In this document: positions 1,939-30,290 of the stretch, one piece after another | Layout of the letters: every line of letters starts with the position of its first letter | How positions within the stretch are numbered: the first letter of the stretch is position 1 | Assembly: GCA_013306675.1 (NCBI GenBank) | Contig: JABLUY010000280.1 | Coordinates: 1 to 43,973, forward strand | Length of the DNA: 43,973 nt | Reading direction: 5' to 3' | DNA from: Thraustochytrium sp. TN22 | Taxonomy: Eukaryota > Sar > Bigyra > Thraustochytrida > Thraustochytriidae | Program-made: the position numbers and the translations under genes | The notes under the pieces: generated by a model | What the model saw: the letters and a program-made list of their open reading frames with translations, nothing else | What the model was told of the DNA's origin: nothing | The model's database searches: none

Positions 1939-3009
1939 ATGATGTCGTGCGCCGCGTTGGTGTTGCTGGCTGCCGTGGCTGGGACGCTGCTGCTGAGCCT
2001 GGTCATCGACGGCCAGATGCGCATGTACTGGCCGCCGCCGACGTGGACGCTGGAGGATATCCCGGCGCTGGACGGGCAGACGGCGCTGGTGACGGGCGCC
2101 AACACGGGCCTGGGCTATGAGACAGCGCTGGAGCTGCTCAAGCATGGTAGCAGGGTCATCCTCACGACGCGGACGGCCAAGAAGGCGCACGACACGGCGA
2201 AGCGCCTGTGCGCGGAGCCCGGCGTGACAAAGGCGCAATGCGAGAATGTCGTCGCTCTGGATCTCGGCCTGCAGCTCGCGTCGCTGGAGTCGGTGCGCGA
2301 GTTTGCTGATGCGGTGCTCGCAAGCGAGAAGCGCATCGACATGCTCATTCTGAACGCCGGCATCGCGGTCACCGAGCTGCAGTTGTCAGAAGAGGGTCAC
2401 GAGCTGCACTTCGCCGTGAACCACTTGGCCCACTACGCGCTCACGCTGCGGCTGATGCCACTGATTCGCGCGGCGCCGGGGGCCCGCATCGTGAGCGTGT
2501 CGAGTCTTGGGCACTCTTTTGCGCCAAAGGATGACCCCTTCGACCTGGCCAAGATGAAAGACGCCGCGAACTTCGCGCACTTTCCTTTTTACGGCCGCAG
2601 CAAGCTGGCCAACATCCTCTTTGCGCGCTCCCTGGCGCACCGCCTCGAGGGCAGCGGCATTGTCTCCAACAGCGTGCACCCAGGCTTCGTGAGCACGGAG
2701 CTGACTCGGTACGCGCGCGAGGCGGTGTCCAAGGTGGTCAACAGTGAGTGGCTGGCCAACACGGCAGCCGATATCGTCATGTCGTTGGTGCTCAAGCCCA
2801 AGCAGGGTGCCATCACGCAGCTCTACTTGGCCATGCCGGAGGTCGCGCGCAAGGGCATCACCGGCCAATATTATGTGCCCACCGCGCGCCCCGTCGATTC
2901 CAGCCCGTTCGCCCTCGCGGCCGGCATCACTCCGGCAGCCCTCAACGACACGCTGGCGGAAGAGCTTTGGGCTCTCTCGGCCCAGCTCACTGGCCTCGAC
3001 CTGGAGTAG
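1939..3009 (+). CDS. Membrane-anchored short-chain dehydrogenase/reductase, paralog 2
   Basis: A 356-residue SDR, paralogous to its three neighbours along its whole length. It has a hydrophobic N-terminal anchor (5-23), WPPPTW (31-36), the cofactor motif TGANTGLG (52-59), a catalytic SS pair (188-189) and YGRSK (Tyr218, Lys222). The usual NNAG is LNAG (138-141), a conservative change just before the core NAG. Arg78 after strand beta-2 again suggests NADP(H). Two consecutive ATGs open the frame; the first is used here. It is divergent to paralog 1 and convergent with paralog 3, with only 72 bp between the two stop codons. The substrate is unknown. Confidence 0.9.
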   Translation: MMSCAALVLLAAVAGTLLLSLVIDGQMRMYWPPPTWTLEDIPALDGQTALVTGANTGLGYETALELLKHGSRVILTTRTAKKAHDTAKRLCAEPGVTKAQCENVVALDLGLQLASLESVREFADAVLASEKRIDMLILNAGIAVTELQLSEEGHELHFAVNHLAHYALTLRLMPLIRAAPGARIVSVSSLGHSFAPKDDPFDLAKMKDAANFAHFPFYGRSKLANILFARSLAHRLEGSGIVSNSVHPGFVSTELTRYAREAVSKVVNSEWLANTAADIVMSLVLKPKQGAITQLYLAMPEVARKGITGQYYVPTARPVDSSPFALAAGITPAALNDTLAEELWALSAQLTGLDLE

Positions 3010-3081: not shown

Positions 3082-4200
3082 TCATGACAAATCCAGCCCT
3101 GTAAGCTGAACGCTAAGCTTCCAGAGCTCGCGGGCAAGGGCCTCATCCCGAGCCTGATCCGAGATGGAGAACGAGACATCGACCGGGTGCGAGGCCACGG
3201 GACGGGCGAACGGAACATAGTACTGGCCGGTGATGTTGCGCTCCACCACGTCAGGCATGGCGAGGAAGAGCTGCGTGGAGGCGCCGTCCCGCGCACCGAG
3301 CATCCACTGATCCTCCATCAGCCCGCGCACCTTGGAGAACATAAAGAGGCATGCCTTGATGACCACCTGCTCCACGCTCGCGTCAGCTTGGTGTCTGGAC
3401 ATGATAGACACGTTATGCGCCGGGGCGTAGCGCCACACCTCCGTCTTAACCATGCCGGGATGCGCAGCGTTGACAAAGAGCCCCGGTTTCCGGCGCGCCA
3501 ACTCGCTTGCGAAGAGAATGTTGGCCACCTTGCTCCGGCTGTAGGCCGCGACAGGATCGTACACGGTCTCGTCCTTCATCTTGTCCAGGTCGAGCAGATC
3601 CTTGGGTGCCCAGCGGTGGGCGGCGCTCGTCACGCACACCACGCGCGCGGGAGGCTGCGCCGCGTCCAGCAGCGGCGCGAGGCGCATCGTCAGCGCGAAG
3701 TGACCGAGGTGGTTCACCCCGAACTGCTGCTCGTGGCCGTCCTCTGTGAGGCCATAGGGCGTCACAAAGATGCCCGCATTGTTAATGAGCATGTCCAGGC
3801 GAGTCTCGGTCGCGAGAATGTGCTCTGCGAAGGCTTGAACGGACGCCAGTGAGGCCAGGTCCAGGCCGACCTCTGGCACCACCACGAGCGGGCACAACGC
3901 CTCGGAGACAGTTTCTTCGGCACACAGCCGCTGCGCAGCCTCTTGCATCTTGGCCGGAGAGCGCGCCGCCACGATCACGCGGGCACCGCGCTTGACGAGC
4001 TCCAGCGCGGTCGCGTAGCCCAAGCCCGAGTTGGCGCCCGTCACCAGCGCGGTCTGCCCGTCCAGCGCCGGCATGTCCTCTAGAGCCCACTGCGGCGGCG
4101 GCCAGTATACTCGCAGCGAGCCATCGCTCAAAAGGTTGCTCAGCGCGCCGTAAAGGACGCTGCCCAACGCCACGGCCACCGCCATCGCCATGCCCCGCAT
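3082..4200 (-). CDS. Membrane-anchored short-chain dehydrogenase/reductase, paralog 3
   Basis: A 372-residue SDR. The frame stays open 41 codons further upstream, but that extension is Arg/Pro-rich and unlike the paralogs. The ATG at 4200 puts the hydrophobic segment (5-24) at the N terminus as in the other copies. Motifs: WPPPQW (33-38), TGANSGLG (54-61), NNAG (140-143), catalytic TS (191-192) and YSRSK (Tyr220, Lys224). It is closest to paralog 4, sharing the DGSLR..WPP..W and ALELVKRGAR blocks, which points to a recent tandem duplication. A CACGTG box lies 33 bp upstream, and a CRE plus second CACGTG about 230 bp upstream. The substrate is unknown. Confidence 0.9.
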   Translation of the reverse strand: MRGMAMAVAVALGSVLYGALSNLLSDGSLRVYWPPPQWALEDMPALDGQTALVTGANSGLGYATALELVKRGARVIVAARSPAKMQEAAQRLCAEETVSEALCPLVVVPEVGLDLASLASVQAFAEHILATETRLDMLINNAGIFVTPYGLTEDGHEQQFGVNHLGHFALTMRLAPLLDAAQPPARVVCVTSAAHRWAPKDLLDLDKMKDETVYDPVAAYSRSKVANILFASELARRKPGLFVNAAHPGMVKTEVWRYAPAHNVSIMSRHQADASVEQVVIKACLFMFSKVRGLMEDQWMLGARDGASTQLFLAMPDVVERNITGQYYVPFARPVASHPVDVSFSISDQARDEALARELWKLSVQLTGLDLS

Positions 4201-4232
4201 CGTGTCCAGGCTTTTCCGCGAGTGAAGAGGTC

Positions 4233-4238
4233 CACGTG
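4233..4238. promoter_or_regulatory. CACGTG box just upstream of SDR paralog 3
   Basis: A perfect palindromic CACGTG, preceded by TC, lies 33 bp before the paralog 3 ATG. The same TCCACGTG string lies 77 bp before the start of paralog 4. CACGTG is the classical E-box/G-box bound by bHLH or bZIP factors. Function here is inferred from position and recurrence. Confidence 0.45.
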
Positions 4239-4429
4239 CTGGAGTCGGCGTGGGTCGCGACCCAGGCTGCGCGGAGCGCTCTCCGCACGCGTGCGCCTCT
4301 GCTCCCTTGCGCCAACGCCGCACGCCACGGCGCCTGGAGTCCTGACAGTGAGATGACGCGTGTGCGATGTGTCGAGCGCTGTCGAGCGCAGTGCAGTGCT
4401 CGGAGCTGGCTCAGCTGTGGAAGAAACCG

Positions 4430-4698: not shown

Positions 4699-4770
4699 CG
4701 CTTCTTCAGGCGCGCATGCTTCTTCAGAAGCTCTTGCTTCTTCAGGAGCTCTTGCTCCTTCAGGAGAGGT
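4699..4770. repeat. Imperfect short tandem repeat at the 3' end of SDR paralog 4
   Basis: Four imperfect copies of a 15-18 bp unit built on CTTCTTCAGGAGCTCTTG run into the stop-codon region of paralog 4. They lie mostly in its 3' untranslated part. No coding role is apparent. Confidence 0.7.
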
Positions 4771-5886
4771 CGACTCCGGTGAGCTTGGCGCTCACCTCCC
4801 AAAGTTCGCGCGCGAGCTCCTCGTCGCAGGCCTGGTTGGCGAGCCCGAAGGAAAGGGCGATGAGCGGAGTGGAATCAGCAGGACGGGCCATGGGAACGTA
4901 GTATTGGCCCGTGATGTTGAGCTCCGCCATGTGGGGCATGGCAAGGAAGAGCTGCGTGGTGGCCCCTTCCTGCGCGGTGAGCATGAAAACGTCCGCGACA
5001 TTGTCTCTGATTTGGAGAACAAGGTACAGGAGGGCCTTGATGATTCTGTGCTCGAGGTGGGCGTCGGGCTGGTGGTCCGTCGCAAAGGAGGTCCCATGCT
5101 GCGACATGTGTCGCCAGACCTCCGTCTGCACAAGACCCGGATTCAAAGAGTTGGCGAAGATCTTCGGGTTCCGGCGTGCCAGTTCGCTGGCGAAGAGGAT
5201 GTTGGCCGCCTTGCTGCGGCCGTACGCCAGGAGAGGGTCATAAAGCGCCTCGTCGTTGATCTTGTCCACGTCGAAGGGGTCCACGCTCGGCGCGTAGCGG
5301 TGCGCAACGCTGGAGACGCTGACCACTCGCGCGGGCGGCTGCGTCGCCTCCAGCAGCGGCATGAGGCGCATCGTCAGCGCGAAGTGGCCAAGGTGGTTCA
5401 CTCCGAACTGCTGCTCGTAGCCGTCCTCGGTGAGGCCGTACGGTGTTGCAAAGATGCCCGCGTTGTTGATGAGCATATCCAAGCGGTCCTCTGTGGCCAA
5501 CACGTGGTCCGCGAACGCCTCCACGGAGGCCAGCGACGAGAGGTCAAGGCCACCTCCGGCACCACCGCGCGCGCGCAGGCGGCCTCGGAGACGTCGTCCT
5601 CGGCACACATACGCTGTGCGGCCTCGCGCATCTTGCTCGTAGATCGCGCAGCCATCAGCACGCGGGCGCCGCGCTTGACGAGCTCGAGCGCCGTCGCATA
5701 CCCCAGGCCTGAGTTCGCGCCTGTGACCAGCGCCGTCTGCCCTTCCAGCGCCGGCATCAGGTCCAGGCTCCACTGCGCCGGCGGCCAGTGGAGCCTCAGA
5801 GAGCCATCAGCCAACAGATTTGTCACCACGAAGGCCAGCACAGCCGCCGCAGCGACCGCCACGGCCTTGCGCGCGCTCGTCTTCAT
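4760..5886 (-). pseudogene. SDR paralog 4, broken by a one-base frameshift
   Basis: This is a complete SDR in content but split over two frames. Residues from the ATG at 5886 give the anchor, WPPAQW and TGANSGLG up to VVPEVA. The downstream frame gives the rest: DLSSLASVEAF, NNAG, VSVSS, YGRSK and the conserved C terminus ending LTGVDLS at 4760. Compared with paralog 3, one G is missing between 5551 and 5552. The remaining sequence is intact with no other lesion. It is therefore either a very young pseudogene or an assembly or sequencing error. A codon earlier in the frame (5904) is GTG, so 5886 is the first ATG. As written, the product would stop after about 162 residues without a catalytic site. 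Confidence 0.8.
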
Positions 5887-13637: not shown

Positions 13638-15314
13638 ATGGCGCGCGTGATCATCTGCGTGGACCTGGACTGCTTCTACGCGCAGGTACTGGAGCGGCTG
13701 CAGCCTGAGCTGCGCGGCAAACCGCTGGCCGTGCGGCAGACCTACATTACGGTGACATGCAACTACGAGGCGAGGCGCTTTGGCGTGACCAAGCTCATGT
13801 CGCTCGAGGACGCCCGCAGACGTTGTCCGGGCCTGCAAGTCGTTGACGGCAGCGATCTGCGGCCCTTCCGGGAGGCGAGCGAAGAAATCGCCGAGGTGCT
13901 CGAAGGCTTCGGCTGTCCCGTGGAGCGCAAGGGGATGGACGAATCCTTCCTTGATGTCTCGGCGCTTGTGGACACACGCTTGCAAGGGCTCGCGGCGGAC
14001 GCCGCAGGCAGCTTCGAGGGTCACCTGCTCGGCGACCCGGAGACGCTCAACACGCGCACGCGCGCTCGGCTTGCCCTGGGCTCCGCGCTAGCGCAGGAGA
14101 TGCGCGATGAGATCCGTCGGCGCCTCGAATTCACGTGCTGCGCCGGGGTCGGCACGTGCAAGACGAGCGCCAAACTCGCGGCGGAGCTGCACAAGCCCAA
14201 CCAGCAGTCCACGATCTTGCCGGCGGCGCTCGAGGGCTACATGCAGGACCTGCCGGCTGGCCGGGTGCAGGGCGTGGGCCGCGCAATGCTCCGGGACATT
14301 TGGAGCGCGCTGCGCGCGCGCACGCCCGACCTGCCAGATTCGCCGTACGCGCTCTCGTGCGCCCAGGTGCGCACGCTGTCGCAGGCGGAGCTCTCGCGGG
14401 CGCTGGGCAGCGCCTCGCAAGCTGCTTTCGTACACGGGGTCGTCCGCGGCGTGGACCCGCGGCCCGTCACGCAGTCCGCGCCGCCCAAGACTATCTCGCT
14501 CGAGGAAACCTCGCTGCCGCACCCAGAGACGTGGGAAACCGCCGACGCGCGCGTGCGCGTGCTCTGCGAGCGCATCGCGGAATTCATCGCAAAGCGCCGC
14601 GAAAAACACGGCGACCTGGCCACCACGCTGCGCGTCTCGGTCTCCGACAAGGCAGGCGCCCTTTCGCGCGACAGTCAGTCCTTCGCGAATCGCGGAGAGC
14701 ACGAGTCGTATCGAAGCCGGCGCCGCCACGTCTCGCGCCAGGCCAAGGTTGGGCCTGCGGATCTCGCCAGCGTTGATGCGCTGCACCGCTGCGCGCGCAG
14801 CCTGCTCCGGGCTTGCCTACCGCCGGGGGGCGGGGCCTTTGTGCTGTGCCGCGTGAACCTGGCCATGACGGACTTTCGCTTGGCACGCGGCACGCAGCGC
14901 GAGCTCTCTGCTTACTTCACTGCCCCCGCAGCTTCCTCGGAGGTCGACGCGCCGTCCCCTCGGTCGAGTAAGAGGCTTCGAGACACGAGTGCGGCTGTTG
15001 GGACGTTGCCCGCGGAGCTGTCATCCTCGTCATCCTCTTCCAAGGCCTCTCCGTCCGCTTCTACGCCTGCATCGTCACTGGCCCAGTTCTTCGGGCGCAA
15101 GTCGGCCCAAGCCGCCGTCCCAAGCGAAGATAGGAGCGCTGCCGCTGTTGCTTCAGGCGCCGCTGCCGCATCGCCCGCCGGCGAGGTCATTGACCTGGTC
15201 GACAGCGACGAGGAAGGCGACCGGCGCCCAAAAGCCGGCGGACCCGGCCTCCCACTCAAGCAAGGCAACAAGTCAAAGCGAGCCAAGATCACCAGCTACT
15301 TCAGCAAGGGCTGA
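13638..15314 (+). CDS. POLI: Y-family translesion DNA polymerase, iota-like
   Basis: 558 residues. The N-terminal catalytic half matches DNA polymerase iota better than eta or kappa: VDLDCFYAQV (Asp9 metal ligand, Tyr14 steric-gate position), TVTCNYEARRFGVTKLM (39-54) and GMDESFLDVS (Asp101/Glu102). Palm, thumb (CCAGVGTCKTSAKL, then KPNQQSTILP) and little-finger regions follow to about 430. The family inserts bases opposite damaged template. The tail is disordered and carries two PCNA-box-like motifs, SSLAQFFG (479-486) and KITSYF (550-555). A SUMO-interacting-type motif, VIDLVDSDEE (517-526), lies between them. No ubiquitin-binding motif like those of animal iota was recognised. It converges with NMD3, 82 bp between stops. 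Confidence 0.9.
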   Translation: MARVIICVDLDCFYAQVLERLQPELRGKPLAVRQTYITVTCNYEARRFGVTKLMSLEDARRRCPGLQVVDGSDLRPFREASEEIAEVLEGFGCPVERKGMDESFLDVSALVDTRLQGLAADAAGSFEGHLLGDPETLNTRTRARLALGSALAQEMRDEIRRRLEFTCCAGVGTCKTSAKLAAELHKPNQQSTILPAALEGYMQDLPAGRVQGVGRAMLRDIWSALRARTPDLPDSPYALSCAQVRTLSQAELSRALGSASQAAFVHGVVRGVDPRPVTQSAPPKTISLEETSLPHPETWETADARVRVLCERIAEFIAKRREKHGDLATTLRVSVSDKAGALSRDSQSFANRGEHESYRSRRRHVSRQAKVGPADLASVDALHRCARSLLRACLPPGGGAFVLCRVNLAMTDFRLARGTQRELSAYFTAPAASSEVDAPSPRSSKRLRDTSAAVGTLPAELSSSSSSSKASPSASTPASSLAQFFGRKSAQAAVPSEDRSAAAVASGAAAASPAGEVIDLVDSDEEGDRRPKAGGPGLPLKQGNKSKRAKITSYFSKG

Positions 15315-15396
15315 CTCCGACTGAATGTAAAATGCATGCAAAACTGTTGATGACAAAGAACAAAAGCTCCTCCCCGCCTGCAAGGAGCATGCCCAT

Positions 15397-28311: not shown

Positions 28312-28746
28312 GAGCAAGCTTGGGGCTCTTCCCACCAGCGCCGCTGGAGGCCCGCCCACTCGCCGCCGCCGCCGACCGACCGACCGACCGACCGATCGGC
28401 CAAGCGTGGGTGGATCGGCGCCGCCAACCGCGCGCCTGGCAGCCTCTGGCGCATCCGACTCGATCTGCCCGTGGCCAGGCGCCTGTCGGCCCAGGCCAGG
28501 CAGGCCTCGCGAGGCCTTGACTGTCTGAGATTTTTCCCTTCGCAGCCTCCGAGCCTGGCCGCCGACTCCGGCGAGGGAAAAAAGGAAAAGAGCGCAGCCT
28601 GCGCAGCCTGCGCAGCCTGCGCAGCCTGCGCAGACCGCCAGGCCGACCGCGGCCTGGCGATCGATCAATCGCCAACGCGCGATCGGGGGCGAGCGCGCGA
28701 CAGGCGCCTCGGAGGGACGCGGCACGAGGCGCTGCCAGCGGGAGCG
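28312..28746. promoter_or_regulatory. Divergent spacer of the inverted zinc-finger pair
   Basis: 435 bp between the two start codons, the centre of the inverted duplication, which itself is not palindromic. It carries (CGAC)n at about 28374-28396. A 9-bp tandem repeat (GCAGCCTGC units, five copies) lies at about 28594-28634. It must contain both promoters, which therefore differ although the coding arms are near-identical. Confidence 0.55.
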
Positions 28747-30290
28747 ATGGCGCCGCGCGGGCTGCTCGCCTGGCTGCGCTACGGCAAGGGGGCCGCGCCG
28801 AACGGGGCCGGCGGCGAGGCCAGGGAGCCGGCGGACGACGGCGAGCGGAGCGAGAGAGCGAGTGAGAAGCGCGCTGCCGCGGAGGCCGACGCGGATGTGG
28901 TGGACCTGGTGAGCGATACCGAGGAGGCAGGCGAGCCGGGCACGCCGGTCCGTCGCGCCTGCAAAAGACGCCGCGACGCCGAGCCGGAAACGCCGGTCCA
29001 TGGCGCTTGCAAGAAGCGGCACGCTACCAGCCGCCCGACAGATCGTGCGGGAGAGGAGGCAAAACACCCTCCGGCGAAGTGCCTGGACTTTGGTATTCGC
29101 CTCGACGAAGGTTTGTTGGATGCGCGGTGCAGCTTGACCTTCAAGCACGAGCCGGCTGCCTTGCCGGCCCACTTCGTGGATGCCATGGAACTACAGGATC
29201 TGGGCAATAACAGCTTTGTAAAGATGGAAGAGCTCGCCGCGCTGGACGACGCCATGAACAACTCGCAGCGTGCGGCGAGTACCCCTGGCAGCGATAATGA
29301 AGCGCACCGGAAGGGACAAGCAGATCGGATCAGCGAGTGTGCTGCCCGCGGAGGTGGCCGGAGCTGTCAGCTCCCAGACTGCGGCAAGATCAGGCGCTCT
29401 GTTTGCCTTCCCTTTTGCAAGGCCCACGGAGGTGGACGGCGCTGTCAGCACCCAGGCTGCGGCATGAGCATGGCCGATGGCGGTCTTCCCTTTTGCATGG
29501 CTCACGGAGGCGGCCCGCGCTGTCGGCACCCAGACTGCGGCAAGAGCATGGCCAACGGCGGTCTTCCGTTTTGCAAGACTCACGGAGGTGGACGGCGCTG
29601 TCAGCACCCAGACTGCGGCACGAGCATGGCCAATGGCGGTCTTCCGTTTTGCTGGACTCACGGAGGTGGACGGCGCTGTCAGCACCCAGACTGCGGCACG
29701 AGCATGGCCGGTGGCGGTTTTGCAGGACTCACGGAGGTGGCCGGCGCTGTCAGCACCCAGACTGCGGCAAGAGCATGGCCGGTGGCGGTCTTGCCTTTTG
29801 CAAGACTCACGGAGGAGGCCGGCGCTGTCAGCACCCAGACTGCGGCAAGAGCATGGCCGGTGGCGGTCTTCCGTTTTGCAGGACTCACGGAGGAGGACGG
29901 CGCTGTCAGCACCCAGACTGCGGCAAGAGCATGGCCGGTGGCGGTCTTGCCTTTTGCAAGACTCACGGAGGAGGCCGGCGCTGTCAGCACCCAGACTGCG
30001 GCAAGAGCATGGCCGGTGGCGGTCTTCCGTTTTGCAGGACTCACGGAGGAGGACGGCGCTGTCAGCACCCAGACTGCGGCAAGAGCATGGCCGGTGGCGG
30101 TCTTGCCTTTTGCAAGACTCACGGAGGAGGCCGGCGCTGTCAGCACCCAGACTGCGGCAAGAGTATGGTCGACGGCGGTCTTCCCTTTTGCACGGCTCAC
30201 GGAGGTGGCCGGCGCTGCCTAGATCCTCGATGCCACAAGCCCGTCATCTCTAAGAGCGCCTACTGCGCTGTTCATGATTCCCAAGCCTGA
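28747..30290 (+). CDS. C-x4-C-x11-C-x2-H finger-array protein 2, right inverted copy, frameshifted
   Basis: The N-terminal 195 residues are nearly identical to gene 1, with the same VVDLVSDTEE (51-60), basic stretch, FKHE (132-135) and VKME (158-161). By content there are twelve finger units, ending CHKPVISKSAYCAVH at 30290. In unit 5 (about 29715-29722) seven bases are missing relative to sibling units, shifting the frame. As written, translation from 28747 makes four fingers. It then enters a different open frame through the same repeat (units like ARLTEEAGAVSTQTAARAWP, no Cys pairs) and stops at 30222, about 491 residues. The intact finger frame resumes for units 5-12. Either a recent mutation or an assembly error in a repeat is possible. 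Confidence 0.7.
29347..30275 (+). repeat. 78-bp zinc-finger-coding tandem array with a 156-bp higher-order unit
   Basis: Twelve units. Units starting at 29767, 29845, 29923, 30001 and 30079 alternate between two variants (LAFCKT and LPFCRT). They form 156-bp dimers that are almost identical, a sign of recent unequal exchange. Confidence 0.9.

Follow-up and report, generated by a model that had tools for sequence, protein, structure and literature searches.

The window analysed here is a 43,973-nucleotide stretch of the genome of Thraustochytrium sp. TN22, and it encodes a Y-family DNA polymerase, Pol iota, of 558 amino acids plus stop (13638..15314, + strand, as are all features of this gene given below). 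The palm/fingers/thumb core (aa 1-293; 13638..14516) was delimited by the match to the IMS catalytic domain (PF00817, 4.4e-37 in Pfam), by alignment and by model confidence (pLDDT mostly >80 to about residue 270). A little-finger (PAD) domain was placed approximately at aa 297-400 (14526..14837) from the secondary structure of the model and a weak IMS_C match over residues 290-420 that falls below the cut-off. In alignment to solved structures, D9, D101 and E102 coincide with catalytic acids of human Pol iota. Q34, I37 and V39 align with the human fingers residues Q59, L62 and V64, which narrow the active site; I37 is a conservative change. Pol iota is characterized by dG misinsertion opposite T and by Hoogsteen pairing. 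The 3' end of the gene looks normal, with TGTAA, a poly(A) signal in some protists, at 15326, 12 bases past the stop.

Also present in the window is a cluster of four short-chain dehydrogenase genes (102-1172, - strand; 1939-3009, + strand; 3082-4323 and 4760-5773, - strand). A Zf_WRKY19-type zinc-finger repeat protein is encoded at 28471-30222 (+ strand), and has a stretch resembling a SUMO-interacting motif (SIM), DADVVDLVSDTEEAG, at its N-terminus. Beyond the first repeats, this ORF appears to run through the repeat sequence in a different reading frame, and the array may be frameshifted or mis-assembled.

The polymerase was assigned using searches in both directions. By sequence, the best solved structure in the PDB is human Pol iota (8.7e-53), ahead of eta (2.2e-31) and kappa (1.6e-22), and identity to the human iota core is 39% over 295 aligned columns. 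When the human iota core was used as the query among the five Y-family proteins of this genome, the window protein ranked first (2.1e-56) and kappa next (2.6e-32). An AlphaFold2 model, built from an alignment of the same five proteins, has a mean pLDDT of 64, with high values in the core and values below 50 for residues 398-558. Among the best 50 Foldseek matches listed for this model, ranks 1-28 are all iota and eta appears from rank 29. In both search directions iota is its closest family, before eta, kappa and Rev1, which makes the protein a Pol iota ortholog; the iota-like identity suggested in a preliminary description of this DNA is borne out by all three rankings. Solved structures align only up to residue 293 and are therefore uninformative on the tail. 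Relatives of the protein were also sought in viral contigs (11 pattern matches, none a relative), in GTDB genome contigs (one bacterial locus, 28% identity) and in phages (24 records, all <60% identity); the bacterial and phage matches were of no use.

Residues 398-558 (14829..15311) form a predicted disordered tail (pLDDT below 50). Ser and Ala abound in residues 428-558, where the share of order-promoting residues is 0.15 vs 0.30 in residues 1-420. Directly behind the little finger lies QRELSAYF (aa 420-427; 14895..14918), here PIP1, a PCNA-interacting box of the canonical form Qxx[ILM]xx[YF]F that is modelled as a short helix at low pLDDT. It matches the published PIP consensus Q-x-x-[ILMV]-x-x-[FY]-[FY] (PMC11276120). 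Further along are the PIP-like or RIR-like ASSLAQFFG (aa 478-486; 15069..15095), the SIM VIDLVDSDEE (aa 517-526; 15186..15215), recognised as a sequence pattern, and the PIP-like RAKITSYF (aa 548-555; 15279..15302), which ends three residues from the C-terminus. The SIM follows one PIP-like motif by 31 residues and precedes the other by 21. The preliminary description had placed SSLAQFFG (479-486; 15072-15095), VIDLVDSDEE and KITSYF (550-555; 15285-15302) exactly where we find them. It had observed correctly that the first and last lack the leading Gln, and what it called a SUMO-interacting core with an acidic flank has the look of a good acidic SIM. Its inventory of PCNA boxes stands for these two Gln-less motifs, and missed the main box, QRELSAYF. 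The FF of QFFGRKS in the middle motif fits that of the RIR consensus nFFhhhh (PMC8468184), with no proline behind it. Because PIP and RIR overlap is known in human Y-family enzymes, the middle motif is ambiguous, and it may equally be a Rev1-interacting motif.

How readily such motifs arise by chance was estimated by shuffling residues 431-558 of the tail 100,000 times; the patterns were set after the motifs had been seen, and the resulting figures therefore flatter the case. At least one [ILM]xx[FY][FY] motif occurred in 0.64% of shuffles and at least two in 2 of the 100,000, and a motif of this kind ending no more than 4 residues from the C-terminus occurred in 1.7e-4 of them. The core [VI][VI]D[LVI] followed by D/E, directly or after one V/I/L, was found in 2.8e-4 of shuffles, and a looser SIM rule was satisfied at least once in 0.7%. 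Two PIP-like motifs together with a SIM were obtained in 0 of 100,000. As a background we used 36 other coding-like ORFs (22,275 aa; at least 250 aa each, GC3>GC1>GC2) drawn from the window plus 18 loci; loci retrieved through the SIM pattern were excluded, and Y-family ORFs were labelled separately. Under a similar rule, 3 of the 36 contain a SIM; 8 contain at least one PIP-like motif and one contains both; at the locus of the second eta-like polymerase (eta2) the filter chose wrongly, keeping a longer overlapping frame on the opposite strand and counting it as background in place of the eta2 ORF, and other background frames may be wrong too. Thus, single motifs are not rare, and each alone is weak evidence. 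What stands out is their clustering: some 140 residues of a tail predicted to be disordered hold three PIP-like motifs plus a SIM.

In the textbook scheme, ubiquitin attached to PCNA K164 turns on translesion synthesis. The Y-family polymerases are all described in a review as carrying UBZ or UBM readers (PMC11276120). We did not identify either in the iota protein, in agreement with the preliminary description, which had recognised no ubiquitin-binding motif of the animal type. Pfam gives no UBM at E<=1, the two-UBM tail of animals is absent, and there is no Cys or His after residue 426, so that stretch of the tail cannot hold a zinc-finger ubiquitin reader. The zf_UBZ search gave no match above the cut-off and three weak matches below it. 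A ubiquitin-binding motif in the same tail, which had been named beforehand as the discovery that would count against a SUMO-based reading, was hunted for, and only the degenerate LPAEL was found: a VxxLPxxL-like VGTLPAEL at about 454-461 (LP at 457-458) is a faint echo of a UBM and runs into serines with no second helix. Across the genome, UBM matches at E<=0.001 occur only in two frames, neither of which is any of the five Y-family genes. One of the proteins concerned (locus L017, contig C437) is a non-polymerase protein with two UBM matches among repeated segments. The idea that a two-UBM protein is a displaced tail of iota or Rev1 was rejected, as the frame lacks a polymerase domain and has no IMS match.

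Five genes with an IMS domain were identified by genome search: kappa and Rev1 (both named from sequence and Pfam), the iota of the window, an eta (eta 5.2e-34 vs iota 3.2e-22) and the eta-like paralog eta2 (eta 2.3e-22 vs iota 5.7e-19). Kappa carries two CxxC...HxxxC fingers of the Rad18 kind, CPLCSRDLSSMLVPAANAHVEVC and CPACGKALPGVSNEELNKHLDSC, unnamed by Pfam, which we take to belong to the class called UBZ4. The tail of eta contains DDIVDLVDLTD and ends in a lysine- and arginine-rich stretch. The acidic flank of this core is weak, and the core does not pass the SIM rule applied to the background ORFs; no PIP-like motif lies near it by a 120-residue rule, and only the looser stretches QARFQSFF and STLLSAW were seen. 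A pattern search found no UBZ-like finger in eta. In eta2 the stretches SEIEVVD and DVEIVEIVE were identified, with QRTLHAFLKPS at the end of the protein and no DLVD core. The motif scan revealed no SIM in kappa or Rev1, and for Rev1 Pfam gave neither a UBM nor, at E<=1, a Rev1 C-terminal domain in its frame; one loose UIM-like pattern match is present.

Genes for modification of PCNA were also identified. The genome encodes a single PCNA, whose alignment to the human protein runs without gaps across 259 residues; K164 is retained, and position 127 is occupied by Ala. SUMO is present with a QQGG site (Rad60-SLD, 2.1e-12). The SUMO frame (locus L022, C343:69500-70900) is preceded in frame by LDVMVQQVGG, which is like the end of another SUMO unit, and the gene is perhaps a tandem one. 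A SIZ-type E3 has SAP and MIZ domains, a PINIT match below the cut-off, and a frame that ends in the acidic SIM-like PIEILDSDDDE. A Rad18-like RING E3 (locus L063, C129) scores 74.7 bits, where the family cut-off is 175, and its frame contains another stretch that scores 39.7 bits. Behind its RING is the acidic EEGVVVEDVD and at its end an NZF-like CTFFN finger; no UBZ was found in this frame outside the RING. Yeast Rad18 is reported to have a SIM between RING and UBZ (PMC7074500).

For a genome-wide scan, the core [VIM][VIM]D[LF][VIM]D, picked once the iota and eta cores had been seen, was turned into a DNA pattern, and the reversed pattern served as a control. The pattern has 29 sites in 37.9 Mb vs 11 for the control. 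Twelve sites failed the GC3>GC1 criterion for coding-like sequence and were dropped; of the 17 retained, two share one ORF. Ten of the 17 appear, by eye, to be in folded or unrelated contexts. The other seven, also picked by eye, are in linkers or tails: those of iota, eta, a FAN1 nuclease, the strawberry notch (SBNO) helicase, a SWIM-RING protein, a calpain with a GRF finger and an ORF with no Pfam domain above the cut-off. A PIP-like motif lies within 120 residues at three of these seven (iota, FAN1 and SBNO), compared with none of the remaining ten coding-like sites and 10 of the 93 windows taken as background; FAN1 and SBNO were no input to the design of the pattern. Another two patterns of the SIM type, with 61 and 142 sites (20 and 47 for their controls), were rejected as too unspecific. 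The SWIM-RING protein (locus L034, C8:45793, - strand) belongs to the RING-H2 type, matches SWIM weakly and has two acidic SIM-like cores in tandem; it is a candidate SUMO-targeted ubiquitin ligase. The calpain-type protease (L052, C224) is fused to a GRF zinc finger and has SIM-like stretches in its N-terminal linker.

The FAN1 protein found by the scan (L073, C44, 931 aa) has near its start the PIP-like GLARYF (MSEPRGLARYFSP), then the SIM-type AEVIDLIDDSDGEE, with the stretch VIDLIDDSDGEE, and a VRR_NUC domain at its end. A second FAN1 paralog (L074, C320, 962 aa) has the internal SIM-type EELVIDLVSDQEDAD, and a pattern search found no UBZ-like finger in either. Human FAN1 is described as binding ubiquitin-PCNA via a UBZ and a PIP (PMC6213728). 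In the SBNO frame (L035, C14; its 5' side is open within the locus), PAKLTSFFTK is followed by SVTEVIDLID, which closes the protein; the final 110 residues contain two PIP-like motifs in all, with EVIDLID as the terminus. This layout is reported for the Srs2 C-terminus (PMC9225081). Before the search for SNM1A, we fixed the prediction that a general swap of readers should leave an SNM1A-like nuclease with a SIM and no UBZ4. The prediction half held. Of three DRMBL frames, the one read whole has the SIM-like DVEVLDLSMED and also a UBZ4-like finger, CHQCGKVVSELESAARSAHEAMC; the other two showed neither in the part read, which excludes their 3' parts. A ubiquitin-to-SUMO swap is therefore at most partial, and a wholesale one was rejected, kappa having two UBZ4-like fingers.

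We propose that the disordered tail of iota is a multivalent docking arm whose SIM most likely reads SUMO on PCNA K164, a reading to which we give a probability of about 0.45. The canonical PIP1 (420-427) would hold the catalytic core on PCNA, as its motif and position suggest. The non-canonical PIP-like motifs (478-485 and 548-555) would add weak PCNA contacts, or Rev1 contacts in the case of the FF motif. The SIM (517-526) would add a beta strand to SUMO, most likely on K164 and written by the SIZ-type E3. Iota would then be enriched on SUMO-PCNA as Srs2, PARI and Elg1 are. The features of the tail suggest that the tag bringing iota to DNA damage may differ from the one used in animals.

The SIM might instead bind SUMO elsewhere (on SUMOylated Rad18, RPA, Rev1 or chromatin), or guide SUMOylation of iota by the SIZ-type E3, with PCNA bound via PIP1 alone. 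SUMO groups of this kind may exist, given the SIM-like stretches seen by eye in the Rad18-like and SIZ-type proteins, and the SWIM-RING protein, the calpain with the GRF finger and the ORF with no above-cut-off Pfam domain have SIM-type cores with no PIP-like motif nearby. In addition, C. elegans POLH-1 is reported to be itself SUMOylated near its PIP (PMC3386174). However, the position of the iota SIM, flanked on either side by a PIP-like motif (31 and 21 residues away), and the recurrence of PIP-like and SIM pairs in FAN1 and SBNO argue for a partner on PCNA, and we consider another SUMO partner somewhat unlikely.

It is also conceivable, if rather improbable, that the tail is an arm for PCNA and Rev1 only, with QRELSAYF as PIP1, SLAQFFGRKS as a Rev1-interacting motif, KITSYF as a second PIP and VIDLVDSDEE fortuitous. 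Human Y-family enzymes are described with a PIP1 adjoining the core and with overlapping PIP/RIR motifs (PMC4652755, PMC8468184), a Rev1 ortholog is encoded in this genome, and SIM-like stretches occur in 3 of the 36 background ORFs. A fortuitous core is harder to reconcile with the rarity of the VIDLVD type (29 sites in 37.9 Mb, 17 coding-like) and its recurrence in eta and FAN1, as is a Rev1 partner with the Pfam result (E<=1) for Rev1, in whose frame no Rev1 C-terminal domain was found. Reading of ubiquitin-PCNA through a divergent, unrecognised element, as in animals, would fit the Rad18-like E3, the UBZ4-like fingers of kappa and the SNM1A-like protein, and the degenerate VxxLPxxL. Against it are the absence of a Pfam UBM at E<=1 and of Cys or His after residue 426, and the serine run, with no second helix, behind LPAEL; this explanation is very improbable.

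The preliminary description had gone further than the docking arm preferred here, and proposed recruitment by SUMO-PCNA rather than ubiquitin-PCNA. The parts for SUMO-PCNA (PCNA K164, SUMO and a SIZ-type E3) are present; excluding ubiquitin from the entire pathway goes too far, given the Rad18-like E3 and the UBZ4-like fingers in kappa and the SNM1A-like nuclease. From the Rad18-like E3 and the fingers of kappa, we infer that ubiquitin-PCNA is probably used too. Across these genes, SUMO reading has probably been widely added and ubiquitin reading replaced in part. A bolder version, which we hold to be doubtful, is that in this lineage the signal that recruits bypass enzymes has in part shifted from ubiquitin to SUMO. 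Iota, eta, the eta-like paralog and the two FAN1 proteins would have lost UBM or UBZ and would read SUMO-PCNA via PIP and SIM, kappa and SNM1A would have kept ubiquitin readers, and the two tags would call different sets of enzymes. If some Y-family polymerases and FAN1 do carry a SUMO reader instead, the K164 tag would be exchangeable, and a role of SUMO-PCNA in bypass outside fungi and animals would become testable. Among the matches listed in a search of titles and abstract openings in the open-access literature, we found none that describes a SIM for FAN1 or for any Y-family polymerase.

In comparison with known systems, the protein resembles human Pol iota in its catalytic core and fold, and in having a PIP that adjoins the catalytic domain and is followed by a long tail (PMC4652755). 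A core-adjoining PIP1 is described as stimulating synthesis in human Y-family enzymes, in which PIP and RIR overlap (PMC4652755, PMC8468184). Unlike the human enzyme, whose PIP is non-canonical (PMC11276120), the 558-aa window protein has a canonical Gln-type PIP1, an apparent acidic SIM and two further PIP-like motifs, and no UBM pair was found in it. Yeast and human Pol eta and human FAN1 are similar in that a PIP is combined with a modifier reader on PCNA-linked repair enzymes (PMC11276120, PMC6213728). Their reader is a UBZ, whereas the eta and both FAN1 paralogs of this genome have SIM-type stretches and no UBZ-like finger. The yeast Srs2 C-terminus, PARI and Elg1, like the iota tail, combine a PIP-like motif with a SIM on a single arm, which is how SUMO-PCNA is known to be read (PMC6356670, PMC4904029, PMC6213728), and the parallel with Srs2 drawn in the preliminary description is correct (PMC6356670, PMC4904029). 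They differ from the window polymerase in that Srs2 and PARI are helicases and Elg1 is an unloader, and in that iota has one canonical PIP and a SIM between PIP-like motifs, not at the very end. The combination itself is already known; here it would be carried, in the style of Srs2, PARI and Elg1, by a Y-family polymerase.
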